DNA from: an uncultured Bacteroidales bacterium
Lineage (GTDB): Bacteria; Bacteroidota; Bacteroidia; Bacteroidales; Bacteroidaceae
Length of the DNA stretch: 44,982 nt
NCBI GenBank assembly: GCA_902779315.1
Contig: CACZBC010000024.1
Location: forward strand, 1-44,982
Reading direction: 5' to 3'
The notes beneath the pieces were generated by a model. The model was given only the letters and a program-made list of their open reading frames with translations, was not told where the DNA came from and did not search any database. Shown piece after piece: positions 16,657 through 40,911 of this stretch. Position 1 is the stretch's first letter; the number at the start of each line of letters is the position of its first letter. The position numbers and the translations under genes were made by a program.

Positions 16657-16810
16657 AATCGCATCACTCTGAGGGACGATTAAAAAGATGGGCAGTGAAG
16701 ATGGCAAACAACTAGTGTGACGTTTGTGATTTACTAACGTGACGTTTGCGATTTACTAGTGTTACGTTTGCAATTATCTAGTGTTACGTTTGCAATTATC
16801 TAGTGTGATG
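16657..16810 (-). repeat. 22-bp-period repeat array, locus 1
   Basis: Read on the minus strand, units of exactly 22 bp follow one another without spacers. Two neighbouring units read CGTAACACTAGATAATTGCA plus AA and CGTAACACTAGTAAATCGCA plus AA. Units on either side begin CGTCAC or CATCACACTAG, and the two nearest uvrB are degenerate. Unit boundaries are 16657, 16679, 16701, 16723, 16745, 16767 and 16789. The array fills most of the gap between uvrB and the divergent unknown gene. The same unit occurs at 24331, 29658 and 38039. Confidence 0.8.
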
Positions 16811-16892
16811 TTGTGAAACGCTTTCAGAAGCAAATTCAAACGCTCGAGTATAAATTTGTCTGTTTGTAATCAGTAATTATTATTTTTTTTTG

Positions 16893-29635: not shown

Positions 29636-29723
29636 CAACCCACAGTTAAATTCAAAACATAACACTATACGATGGCAATCGTAACACTATACGTTTACGA
29701 TTTAACTACGCTATGTTTTCTGC
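29636..29723 (+). repeat. 22-bp-period repeat array, locus 3
   Basis: Units begin at 29636 (degenerate), 29658, 29680 and 29702 (degenerate). The two good units start CATAACACTATACGATGG and CGTAACACTATACGTTTA. Seventeen consecutive bases (TAACACTATACGATGGC, 29660-29676) recur exactly at locus 4 (38041-38057). The array lies between the divergent rarA and fabD promoters. Confidence 0.75.
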
Positions 29724-37615: not shown

Positions 37616-37814
37616 ATACAGAATACAGAATACAGTTTCTATGTGAGGGGGGGTACATTATTTGCTGCTGATAGGATTAGTAAAATATAGTATAATATAG
37701 TTTGTAATATAATATATATTGTAATATATATATTATATATTATAAAAATTTCGCGTCAGAAGTTTTTTATCTATAATATGTGCTCATATAGAAACTGTAT
37801 TCTGTATTCTGTAT
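37616..37814. repeat. AT-rich element bounded by 32-bp inverted repeats
   Basis: The left arm at 37616-37647 (three ATACAGA words, then GTTTCTATGTGAG) and the right arm at 37783-37814 are reverse complements with a single mismatch over 32 bp. The 135-bp interior is dominated by alternating A and T and codes for nothing. No clear target-site duplication is visible. The form resembles a miniature inverted-repeat element, or a very long RNA hairpin if transcribed. Confidence 0.75.
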
Positions 37815-38038: not shown

Positions 38039-38104
38039 CGTAACACTATACGATGGCCTGCGTAACACTATACAATCGCATTCGTCACACATTATAATTT
38101 ATGA
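38039..38104 (+). repeat. 22-bp-period repeat array, locus 4
   Basis: Units begin at 38039 (CGTAACACTATACGATGG), 38061 (CGTAACACTATACAATCG) and 38083 (CGTCACACATTATAAT, degenerate). It ends 29 nt before the -7 box of the zinc-hook gene, covering the place of the -33 element and upstream sequence. Confidence 0.75.
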
Positions 38105-38133: not shown

Positions 38134-38141
38134 TACCTTTG
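38134..38141 (+). promoter_or_regulatory. -7 promoter box for the zinc-hook gene
   Basis: TACCTTTG, ending 13 nt before ATG 38155. An in-frame TTG at 38131 would place this box inside the coding sequence and is rejected as start. Confidence 0.65.
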
Positions 38142-38154
38142 CAGACAAATTCGA

Positions 38155-40911
38155 ATGACGATGAATTTCTTTAGGAAAAAAGATAAGGAGATTGCTCCAG
38201 AGCCGAAAACGGTGGAGAGCATACAAGAAGAGCCGAAAAGCGTCGAGCTGGGCAAAGATGAGCCGGAAGTGGCCGGAGATGCCATCGGGGGCGGCATCAA
38301 TTTCAACTTCGAGGAACTGGCTTCGAACAGTCGTTCCAGACGCGACACCCGCATCCTGAACTCCACGCAGCTGCAACGCGTGAAGGACGCCAAACGGCTG
38401 GCAGAGACGAAGTTGCAAGGCCTGGAGGAGAGTCTGGCCCGACTGCAAGCACAGCAGCAATGGTTGCGCAGATACAACGAGACAAACATGGCTCTGGAAC
38501 GCGAGAAGAAGCGCCTCTTCGAACTGGGCAAGCAGAAGGCCATCTATGTGAAAGACGCGAGCATGCTGGAACGTTACGACCTCTTCGAGGGCATTCAGGG
38601 CACCTACCAGAAACTTGCCGTCGTGAAGGACCAGATAGGCAGAGACAAGCGCGGACTGAGCGTTCTGGAACGCGAAGCCGACGAGAACCGGCAGAAAATG
38701 ACAGAACAGGAGAAGCGGCAAGTGCAGGCTCGCGAGCAGCTGAAGAACACCACCGAAACCCTGCAGAACACCTTCGACCACGTCTGCACGGCCTACCATC
38801 TGACGGGCCTGAACGAGTCCATCGAAGCCGAAACCGCATTCCTGCTCGAATACAGCAACAAGGTGAAGGAGGAGACGACGGCCCTCGCATCGATGATTGC
38901 AGACAAGGAAAAGACGACAGCCCAGCTCTCGGCCGAACTGGAACGCCTTCGCGCCAAACACCAAAGCATGGAAATACACGAAAACATGCTCCAACACGGC
39001 GAAGCGGTGCTCCTGCAGCTGAACCTGCTCGAAGACATGGACAAACGCCGCTCCGAACTGCAGCAGCAACGCCAGCAAGCCCTGAAACGCCAGAACGAGG
39101 AAAACGAACTCCTGGGCAAAGCGTTCGGACAATTCCAGGACCTCGTCTCGCAAGCCGAAACGGCCGAAGCAGAACTGAGCATGCACCGTTCCTACATCCA
39201 AGGCCAGGACGGACTGATGCTTCAGGAACGCGCCCTCATGCTGAAAGGCAGACGCCAGCAACTGCTTTCCGCCCTGTCACTCTGGAAACGCATCAGCACC
39301 GGCTACGAAAGCATCGAGGAGAAGAGCAAGAAGGTGACAGCCCTGCGTCTGGACATCCAGCACCTCGAAGACAACGTACGCGAACTGGAAGACGAGACGG
39401 GCAAGGCACAACGCCTCTGCAAAGAAAAGGAATACACCTATCTCCTGAGCAAAGGCCAGGACATCATCCAGCTGCGTGCCGACCTGAAGGAAGGCGTCAG
39501 TTGCTCGGTTTGCGGAGCCACGCATCACCCCTATCACAGCGACACGATGCTCGACCAGAGCAAACTCATCGGCGAGATGAAGACCGACTACGAGATGCTG
39601 GCTTCGGAAGCGAACGTGAAAGCACAGCAACTCACCGAAATGCAGGCTGAACTGGCGATGGCGAAAGGCCAGCTCAGCGCAGAAGAGGAAGCACTGAACA
39701 CCATTCGCATCCGTCAGAACGAAGACGTCATGGAATGGAAACTCTACGCCCAGCTCGACCCCACCTTCGTGGAATGTTCCGAAAGCACAAACCTCGACGC
39801 CAGAACCGCCCTGCTCCGTCAGTTCATAGAAAACGTCAGTCGCGACGCAGAACTGGCCGAGAAAGAACTCGAGACCTTCACCTTCCACCAAAGCAGCATC
39901 GCCAAAATAAGCGAGGAACTGCAGAAACTGGAACAGAAGAAGAGCGAAGTCAACGTCCGGCTGGGCGAGCTGAATACAGGCTGCCAAGTGTTGAGCCGCG
40001 AAGTGGAACAGATAGGGATGCGTCTGGAAAGCATCAACAAGCAGTTCACACGCATCTACGAAGCGATGCAGGAAGCCGTCTCCATCAAAGACTGGTACTC
40101 CATCTGGCAGAAAACCCCCGAGCAACTCTACGAACAGATTCAGAAACTCCTGAGCAACTGGTTTGCCACAAAGGAAGAGATCACGGCCAAACAAGCCGTT
40201 CTGAATGAGGAGACGGCAAACTTGGAAGGGATGAAGGTGCGGATGCAGTCGTTCGTACGCGCCTCGCAAATCGTCTTGAAGCGAATGGAAGAGCGGGAAG
40301 GCCGAAAAGCCGAGAATCAGAAAGCATATCAACAATTGATTCCGGAAAGGGATGCTAAGACATTACATCAGAAGCACTTGAATGCAATGAAAAACGCTAG
40401 CGAGCAATACGACAACGAGTGCGTCAAGATGAACGAGATCCGTCACGACAACGACATCACGCAAGGCCGTCACGACTTCTACCTCGCCCATATCGACCGC
40501 CTGGAAGGCGAACAGACGCAACTCAACGAGAAGCTCGACCTTTGGATGCACGCCTTCAACCTCCAACACCCGCCAGTTCAAGTGAGCGAGCTCGTCGAAG
40601 TCTTTGCCGACGGCAAGGATTGGAGTCAAATCCGAAGCAATCTGAAACAGATCAGCACCGACTCGCTGCTCTGCCAAGCAAAAGTGGAGGACCTGAACAG
40701 CCGCATCATCGCCCTCGATACGGAAGACGGGCGTTGCAACACCTCAACGCCTGACATTCAGGAAAGTATCGCCTCGAAGCAACAAGCCCTGACCAAACAA
40801 CGGAACGAGACGCTGATGCAGATTGCCCGCCTCTCGGTTCAGCTCGAAGACCACGAACGCGCACTCGCTGCCGAACGCAATTCCGCCGAACCGGTAACCA
40901 GCATGGCGTGA
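38155..40911 (+). CDS. Large coiled-coil protein with SbcC/Rad50-type zinc hook but no ATPase head
   Basis: This 918-residue protein has a short polar N-terminal region (about 1-75), then long heptad-rich coiled coil to about 440. A zinc hook follows, with Cys450 and Cys453 in CSVCGATHHP, then a second long coiled coil to the C terminus. The hook matches the SbcC/Rad50 type (CPVCGS..HP) and lies almost exactly mid-protein, so the two arms could fold back and two molecules could join through zinc. Unlike SbcC, I find no Walker A at the N terminus and no LSGGE signature or Walker B at the C terminus. ATG 38161 is an alternative start. GC content looks higher than in the genes between 10 and 33 kb. 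Function unknown; no nuclease partner is adjacent. Confidence 0.85.
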   Translation: MTMNFFRKKDKEIAPEPKTVESIQEEPKSVELGKDEPEVAGDAIGGGINFNFEELASNSRSRRDTRILNSTQLQRVKDAKRLAETKLQGLEESLARLQAQQQWLRRYNETNMALEREKKRLFELGKQKAIYVKDASMLERYDLFEGIQGTYQKLAVVKDQIGRDKRGLSVLEREADENRQKMTEQEKRQVQAREQLKNTTETLQNTFDHVCTAYHLTGLNESIEAETAFLLEYSNKVKEETTALASMIADKEKTTAQLSAELERLRAKHQSMEIHENMLQHGEAVLLQLNLLEDMDKRRSELQQQRQQALKRQNEENELLGKAFGQFQDLVSQAETAEAELSMHRSYIQGQDGLMLQERALMLKGRRQQLLSALSLWKRISTGYESIEEKSKKVTALRLDIQHLEDNVRELEDETGKAQRLCKEKEYTYLLSKGQDIIQLRADLKEGVSCSVCGATHHPYHSDTMLDQSKLIGEMKTDYEMLASEANVKAQQLTEMQAELAMAKGQLSAEEEALNTIRIRQNEDVMEWKLYAQLDPTFVECSESTNLDARTALLRQFIENVSRDAELAEKELETFTFHQSSIAKISEELQKLEQKKSEVNVRLGELNTGCQVLSREVEQIGMRLESINKQFTRIYEAMQEAVSIKDWYSIWQKTPEQLYEQIQKLLSNWFATKEEITAKQAVLNEETANLEGMKVRMQSFVRASQIVLKRMEEREGRKAENQKAYQQLIPERDAKTLHQKHLNAMKNASEQYDNECVKMNEIRHDNDITQGRHDFYLAHIDRLEGEQTQLNEKLDLWMHAFNLQHPPVQVSELVEVFADGKDWSQIRSNLKQISTDSLLCQAKVEDLNSRIIALDTEDGRCNTSTPDIQESIASKQQALTKQRNETLMQIARLSVQLEDHERALAAERNSAEPVTSMA

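Follow-up and report, generated by a model that had tools for sequence, protein, structure and literature searches.

The Gene and Its Surroundings

The window analysed here is the whole stretch of 44,982 nucleotides of contig CACZBC010000024.1, from an uncultured Bacteroidales gut bacterium of the family Bacteroidaceae. On its forward strand lies an open frame with two ATG codons, at 38155 and 38161, and a stop ending at 40911. The frames of most relatives start at the second ATG in the alignment, and we take the gene from there (38161–40911, with 38155 as the alternative first ATG), which gives a protein of 916 residues. The frame, its family and its dN/dS ratios mark it as the gene of a headless zinc-hook protein derived from SbcC, the DNA-repair protein that is the Rad50 of bacteria. 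In the order of the sequence, all on the forward strand, the protein consists of a variable tail that begins MNFFRKKDKE and is predicted to be disordered from the alignment and the structural model (residues 1–62, 38161–38346), an N-terminal coiled-coil arm (helices 68–441, 38362–39483), a hook loop seen in the AlphaFold2 model (residues 442–462, 39484–39546), which carries the zinc-hook motif CSVCGATHHP (residues 448–457, 39502–39531), and a C-terminal coiled-coil arm (helices 463–907, 39547–40881). Two further motifs, both present in several SbcC arms as well, lie in the second arm: DWxxxW...W (residues 644–667, 40090–40161) and the arm-root motif DLWMHAFN..PPVQ..EL....DW..IR (residues 793–825, 40537–40635). 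The reading of the frame and the model thus confirm the coordinates, the hook and the two arms of the original prediction.

The neighbouring genes in the window are, as named by eye, hisS, a BSP-like peptidase gene, queC, and queF. Just upstream, the candidate promoter element TACCTTTG (38134–38141, forward strand) resembles the −7 promoter element of Bacteroidota, and this likeness suggests that the headless gene has a promoter of its own. Between hisS and the gene there is also a 32-nt inverted repeat (37616–37647 and 37783–37814, 97% complementary, 135 nt apart) that flanks a very AT-rich centre, and this could represent a hairpin or a small mobile element. A 22-bp tandem unit (CGTAACACTATAC..) occurs at three intergenic places, 16710–16812, 29658–29698, and 38039–38090, with six matches of at most three mismatches against 0.04 expected in shuffles. 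The array previously noted ahead of the gene is the last of these; its existence is confirmed, but it comprises only about 2.4 units (38039–38090), and it is not tied to the gene. Near-upstream matches to the repeat are found in just three other loci of 53 (L031–L033, the closest relatives), and its candidacy as a regular companion of the headless gene was rejected.

Absence of the ABC Head

The protein has no recognizable ATP-binding half-domain at either end, as the original prediction had it. A Pfam search finds no ABC domain, and its single match is a sub-threshold one to XhlA at residues 63–104. Among the NCBIfam models none matches a head; all matches lie inside the coils and far under cut-off, that of SMC_prok_B (TIGR02168) scoring 27.1 bits where the cut-off is 567. 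Searching the PDB sequences with the single protein gives no match, and with the family profile 15 weak ones (E from 0.019 to 0.84), none of which is SbcC or Rad50. The patterns for Walker A, the ABC signature, and Walker B are each found in none of the 43 aligned family members, and none of the 60 frames in the first family set contains Walker A. The pattern used for Walker B is a strict one and detects only 7/20 headed SbcCs from Bacteroidales; these 20 were chosen by their Walker A and signature patterns, so that their 20/20 for both is by construction. A degenerate head at the termini was looked for by both profile and pattern, and none was found. The N-terminal extensions of two long frames, in G023 (1444 aa) and G011 (1047 aa), were considered as possible heads and rejected because they contain no Walker A or signature motif.

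The AlphaFold2 model built from the 43-row alignment (mean pLDDT 78.9, pTM 0.32) predicts helices at 68–441 and 463–907 with short breaks, the loop at 442–462, a low-confidence tail at 1–62, and no beta strand. With no strand at all in the predicted fold, there would be no room for an ABC head. The folded hinge domain of the SMC/MukB type is likewise missing from the model, in which the hook loop stands in its place. The overall shape of the protein is uncertain, the pTM being only 0.32, and Foldseek matches, which include JetC and MukB, are coil matches with low TM-scores (query-normalised 0.09–0.19 in the best 18 rows). The net charge is negative (127 K/R, 156 D/E), and such an acidic composition does not suggest direct binding to DNA.

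Descent from SbcC

Because coiled coils match one another by chance, profile comparisons were run with controls. Aligned by hhalign with 20 headed Bacteroidales SbcCs, the family scores 262 (probability 99.8, E = 3.6e-29) over residues 31–905 of the protein and 163–862 of SbcC, compared with 49.6 and 64.8 for reversed alignments and 48–80 for 20 block-of-seven permutations. With the hook removed the score is 144.7 (61.9 reversed), and the C arm alone gives 92.5 (44.4 reversed). The N arm, collinear with that of SbcC, is modest when taken alone, at 54.1 against 34.8 reversed and 39.1 when aligned with the wrong arm. In addition to this likeness of the coils, three non-coil landmarks are collinear with those of many SbcCs, the second and third being missing from some. 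The first is the hook (LRADLKEGVSCSVCGATHHPYHSD in the headless protein, LRGRLLEGEACPVCGSKEHPYGGH in the SbcC of G201), the second is the DWxxxW...W motif, and the third is the arm root, LxxWxxxFN...EL....W...R. The C arm, and with it the protein, ends just ahead of the C-terminal head of SbcC (RWEKLNKLIGSADGNKF).

A tree computed from 209 columns surrounding the three landmarks places 21 headless copies on one side of a branch and 23 SbcC rows on the other (support 98/97). Nearest to the headless copies are the headed SbcCs of G351, from another family, and of G902, from the same genus (97/89), and the SbcCs closest to the group have a very similar hook. The deeper order is unsure because the tree is unrooted and several branches are long (nine rows, namely eight SbcCs and the headless L176). 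The headless rows comprise 12 of the 43 alignment rows and 9/39 later headless loci; L122/L123, which have no hook, were dropped. The family alignment itself leaves out L001–L007 (redundant with the window or with other records), L031 (97% identical), L022, L053, and L008/L051 (partial or split), L064/L065 (start unclear), and L066/L067 (hookless), and 42 of its 43 rows lack the last residue. On these alignments, motifs, and tree, the label "SbcC/Rad50-like" of the original prediction is sharpened: the protein is, as judged from its sequence, a derivative of SbcC specifically, arisen by loss of the engine. It is not an SbcC by the features that define the function, yet it is built from SbcC arms and hook.

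Distribution and Neighbourhood

A first search for relatives matched 34/61 genomes, all from the genus of the window (34/37). With the family profile at E ≤ 1e-10, matches are found in 129/139 genus genomes, including all 18 whose completeness is 90% or more; ten gave no match, and in two of these, G020 and G024, the hisS neighbourhood holds no headless gene. In the order (E ≤ 1e-8) the profile matches 9/393 genomes, the window's own and eight others. Seven of the eight have frames of 1001–1274 aa with Walker A and signature, and the eighth, G230, has a frame interrupted by the contig end and matches SbcC_Walker_B over cut-off. In the phylum there are two matches among 395 genomes, one being the window's own and the other one of the order's SbcCs. 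At E ≤ 1e-8 the profile is insensitive to distant SbcCs (it matches none of five same-family genomes, four of which carry SbcC); therefore, it might overlook a strongly diverged headless gene beyond the genus. A search of contig databases turned up 24 loci; all their titles name Bacteroidaceae, Prevotellaceae, or Bacteroidales, and many are from ruminants.

The gene adjoins hisS in 28/57 loci, a set that includes duplicates and many loci with short flanks, and these include distant and hookless members. In the clade of the window BSP-like and queC genes usually follow downstream, and purA or a DPP III-like gene is among the adjacent genes in G001, G003, and G010 (named by eye). The hisS region of five sister-genus genomes holds no headless gene, and in G095 and G201 the SbcC adjoins an SbcD-like gene (by eye) away from the hisS region. 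The headless gene is not a local truncation.

Such a distribution bears on the idea that the protein defends against phages or plasmids in the manner of Lamassu or Wadjet. PADLOC gives weak matches to LmuB and JetC (E from 1e-4 to 2e-3), and the JetC and MukB matches of Foldseek point the same way; however, the PADLOC matches lie in coils only, the gene is near-universal in its genus among ordinary neighbours, and searches of viral contigs, plasmids, and phages confirmed no relative. LmuB and JetC are ABC ATPase subunits within defence operons, whereas the headless protein matches them in its coils only and its gene lies beside hisS, the BSP-like peptidase gene, queC, and queF (by eye). We consider a defence role very unlikely.

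That the gene is simply a truncated or decaying SbcC is scarcely credible. Both heads are indeed missing, and the copy of G035 (L051/L008) is split into two overlapping frames, by assembly error or by decay. But open frames are mostly 863–977 aa, the headless copies group together in the tree, and the gene is genus-wide, with all 18 near-complete genomes carrying it and dN/dS of 0.04–0.12 (see following). The homologues of the genus are headless too, which answers the concern, raised with the original prediction, that this copy might be a simple truncation.

SbcC and SbcD in the Genus

A full-length sbcCD elsewhere in the genome of the window had been suggested as a check, and none was found with TIGR00618, TIGR00619, or SbcC_Walker_B. 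The SbcC model TIGR00618 has nothing over cut-off there, and its best match was rejected as SbcC since by eye it is UvrA; the only SbcC_Walker_B match was rejected likewise, being RecF. The SbcD model TIGR00619 gives nothing at E ≤ 1e-5, so that the genome shows no SbcD/Mre11 partner. Across the genus, SbcC_Walker_B is over cut-off in 3/37 genomes (G002, G015, and G029), and every one of these matches lies in a full-length SbcC frame whose hook is of another type, CPLCGQ or CPVCGQ, and the other 34 have no headed SbcC over cut-off. TIGR00619 is over cut-off in 2/37 and under it in four more. These genomes are drafts, with 57–100% estimated completeness (84% for that of the window); therefore, single absences of SbcC or SbcD mean little, and the pattern over the 37 says more. 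Three other genera of the family are represented by five genomes; four of these have SbcC_Walker_B over cut-off in frames of 970–1156 aa, and the fifth has a 371-aa frame alone, just under the cut-off.

One genus genome with both proteins, G902 (L159), was met by chance. Alongside its headless copy it encodes a headed SbcC, which is directly preceded by an SbcD-like frame (by eye), and the two hooks are alike (CPLCGATDHPYH in the headed SbcC, CSVCGASHHPYH in the headless protein). In a separate search, SMC_prok_B was over the family cut-off in none of 41 genus and order genomes, with at most 12 candidates scored per genome, and a Bacteroides control genome likewise lacked such a match. The matches of this control family (TIGR02168) were set aside as other coiled-coil proteins, those at L124, L125, and L127 being lipoprotein-like by eye.

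The reading of the headless protein as a regulator or decoy of a genuine SbcC, mixing with it through a common hook type, is favoured by G902, where both occur with similar hooks (CPLCGATDHPYH, CSVCGASHHPYH) and the headed SbcC follows an SbcD-like frame. Yet headed SbcCs over cut-off occur in only 3/37 genus genomes, with other hook types, and not in the window's own, and as far as drafts show the headless gene is kept under purifying selection in genomes without SbcC. We regard this as improbable, and the original suggestion of a dominant partner of a genuine SbcC is unlikely as a general role, the own genome showing neither SbcC nor SbcD and an SbcC head being seen only in the three of 37 genomes and, by chance, in G902. 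A split SbcC, in which ATPase halves from separate genes elsewhere would join the rod in the cell, would account for the conserved arm roots, as a head-docking site would be conserved, and the own genome is just 84% complete. It is about as improbable: in that genome TIGR00618 has nothing over cut-off and SbcC_Walker_B finds RecF alone, and wherever in the genus the SbcC_Walker_B model is over cut-off (3/37) the frame is a full-length SbcC.

The Hook and the N Terminus

The hook pattern C..CG[AS]..HP is present in 43/43 aligned members, at the apex between the two arms (loop 442–462 between helices), and in 36/39 further headless loci. Of the 129 genus genomes with a match, at least five have a form from which the hook has gone together with most of the coil next to it, so that engine and hook are lost and the arms kept; therefore, dimerisation by the hook is not needed universally. 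In a few other genus copies, which are partial, the state of the hook cannot be judged. The hookless proteins (L066, L067, and L161–L163, from G031, G034, G890, G892, and G897) have about 615 aa. They fall into two groups that are only about 48% identical, and hence the loss of the hook is old and the shortened protein has been retained.

The first 60 residues vary between relatives, and disorder is predicted for them. The original prediction held that the polar N terminus replaces the head; the start MNFFRKKDKE is indeed there, but the claim is too strong, as this region is variable and 13/43 members differ there. Those 13 have instead a WW region, for which the prediction gives two short helices in front of the arm. 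Among the 43, 28 begin M-x-[FLI]-[FSY], often with basic residues next. A short motif, GI[NK][FN], is found in the variable tail (region 38161–38346) of 11/43 members, close relatives of the window's protein, and could be a binding peptide. The common start invites the reading that the protein is a scaffold anchored to the envelope or the nucleoid, in which an N terminus of the MNFF(R/K)KK type binds the membrane, the rod spaces a partner, and the hook is optional. The 28 members with such a start, often followed by basic residues, and the arm roots kept in hookless lineages would fit, but 15/43 have no such N terminus, eight of them having the WW region instead. Membrane anchoring by the N terminus is only a guess, and we hold this reading to be unlikely, if conceivable.

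Selection and Conservation

Compared with seven relatives, the window gene has an overall dN/dS of 0.04–0.12; in six of these pairs synonymous change is close to saturated. The lowest dN is at residues 341–580 and the highest at residues 1–60, in 7/7 pairs. Nine pairs of headless proteins have identities of 0.30–0.59 in the coil on either side of the hook (−110 to −16 and +16 to +170) and of 0.16–0.40 in the coil further out; at the arm roots identity rises again, though less (0.26–0.51). In contrast, four SbcC pairs with full coverage are most alike in the hook and in the ends that bear the heads, and their arms (0.19–0.62 identical) show no clear rise beside the hook; a fifth pair, L074/L076, has too few hook-proximal columns. 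The pairs of this comparison were hand-picked. Relative to SbcC, conservation has shifted to the hook-proximal coil. The profile along the sequence suggests two working ends, the hook-side coil and the arm root.

A Probable Zinc-Hooked Rod without a Motor

We think it probable that the protein is a motorless zinc-hooked rod, descended from SbcC, that acts as a tether or scaffold, roles that the original prediction had put forward among others. One SbcC copy in the ancestry of the genus would have lost both ABC half-domains, and the remainder would fold into a long antiparallel coiled-coil rod with the zinc-hook motif at its tip. A coiled coil rises about 0.15 nm per residue, and by this rule of thumb an N arm of about 374 residues would make a rod of about 55 nm; zinc binding and a rod shape in solution we infer. 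Two rods would most likely join hook-to-hook through one zinc ion and four cysteines, as in Rad50/SbcC, leaving the free arm roots to carry partners. The hook of Rad50 is described as a stable dimerisation module (PMC6969161). Lacking ATPase heads, such a dimer would not clamp or cut DNA ends in the manner of SbcCD, and would be a constitutive tether or scaffold. The conservation of the hook-proximal coil and of the arm roots points to these as putative docking sites.

If so, the function of the arms and hook of Rad50/SbcC has been separated in nature from that of the ATPase, and the hooked and hookless motorless rods of a single genus make a ready-made test of the structural role of Rad50 arms and hooks. 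We put at about an even chance the broader claim, that this is a genus-wide motor-free zinc-hook rod derived from SbcC in a genus that has mostly lost SbcCD, with a subclade that has also shed the hook, and that it is apparently the first such bacterial case of the SMC/Rad50 type, reduced to arms and hook. Among the papers found by full-text search of an open-access library, which omits most subscription journals, no title or abstract opening names a bacterial headless Rad50/SbcC family, and two of these papers contain the word "headless".

Comparison with Known Systems

MukB, Smc, and the JetC protein of Wadjet resemble the headless protein in their long coiled-coil rods, as found by Foldseek. 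Unlike it, they have heads and folded hinge domains.

Archaeal ASRPs (coalescin) have a zinc hook on coiled-coil arms, and Arcadin-4 is placed near Rad50 (PMC9389158). ASRPs carry Walker A and B, unlike the headless protein; the NCBIfam matches of the latter to ASRP lie in coils and far under cut-off. Plant DMS3 is a protein with an SMC hinge and no ATPase head that belongs to the scaffold-like DDR complex (PMC6718625). It shares with the headless protein an SMC-type dimerisation module with a coiled-coil arm, the absence of a head and, in its own case, membership of a multi-protein complex (PMC6718625). It differs by an SMC hinge instead of a zinc hook, by flanking helices of only about 50 residues, and by being eukaryotic, and no homology is claimed.

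The closest comparison is with the SbcCs of Bacteroidales. These share the hook type, LRxxLxEGxxCPVCG(S/A)xxHP, and collinear arms, and many have the DWxxxW and arm-root motifs. In contrast to them, the headless protein has no ABC head halves and has no SbcD found in its own genome, and its conservation has moved to the coil beside the hook.
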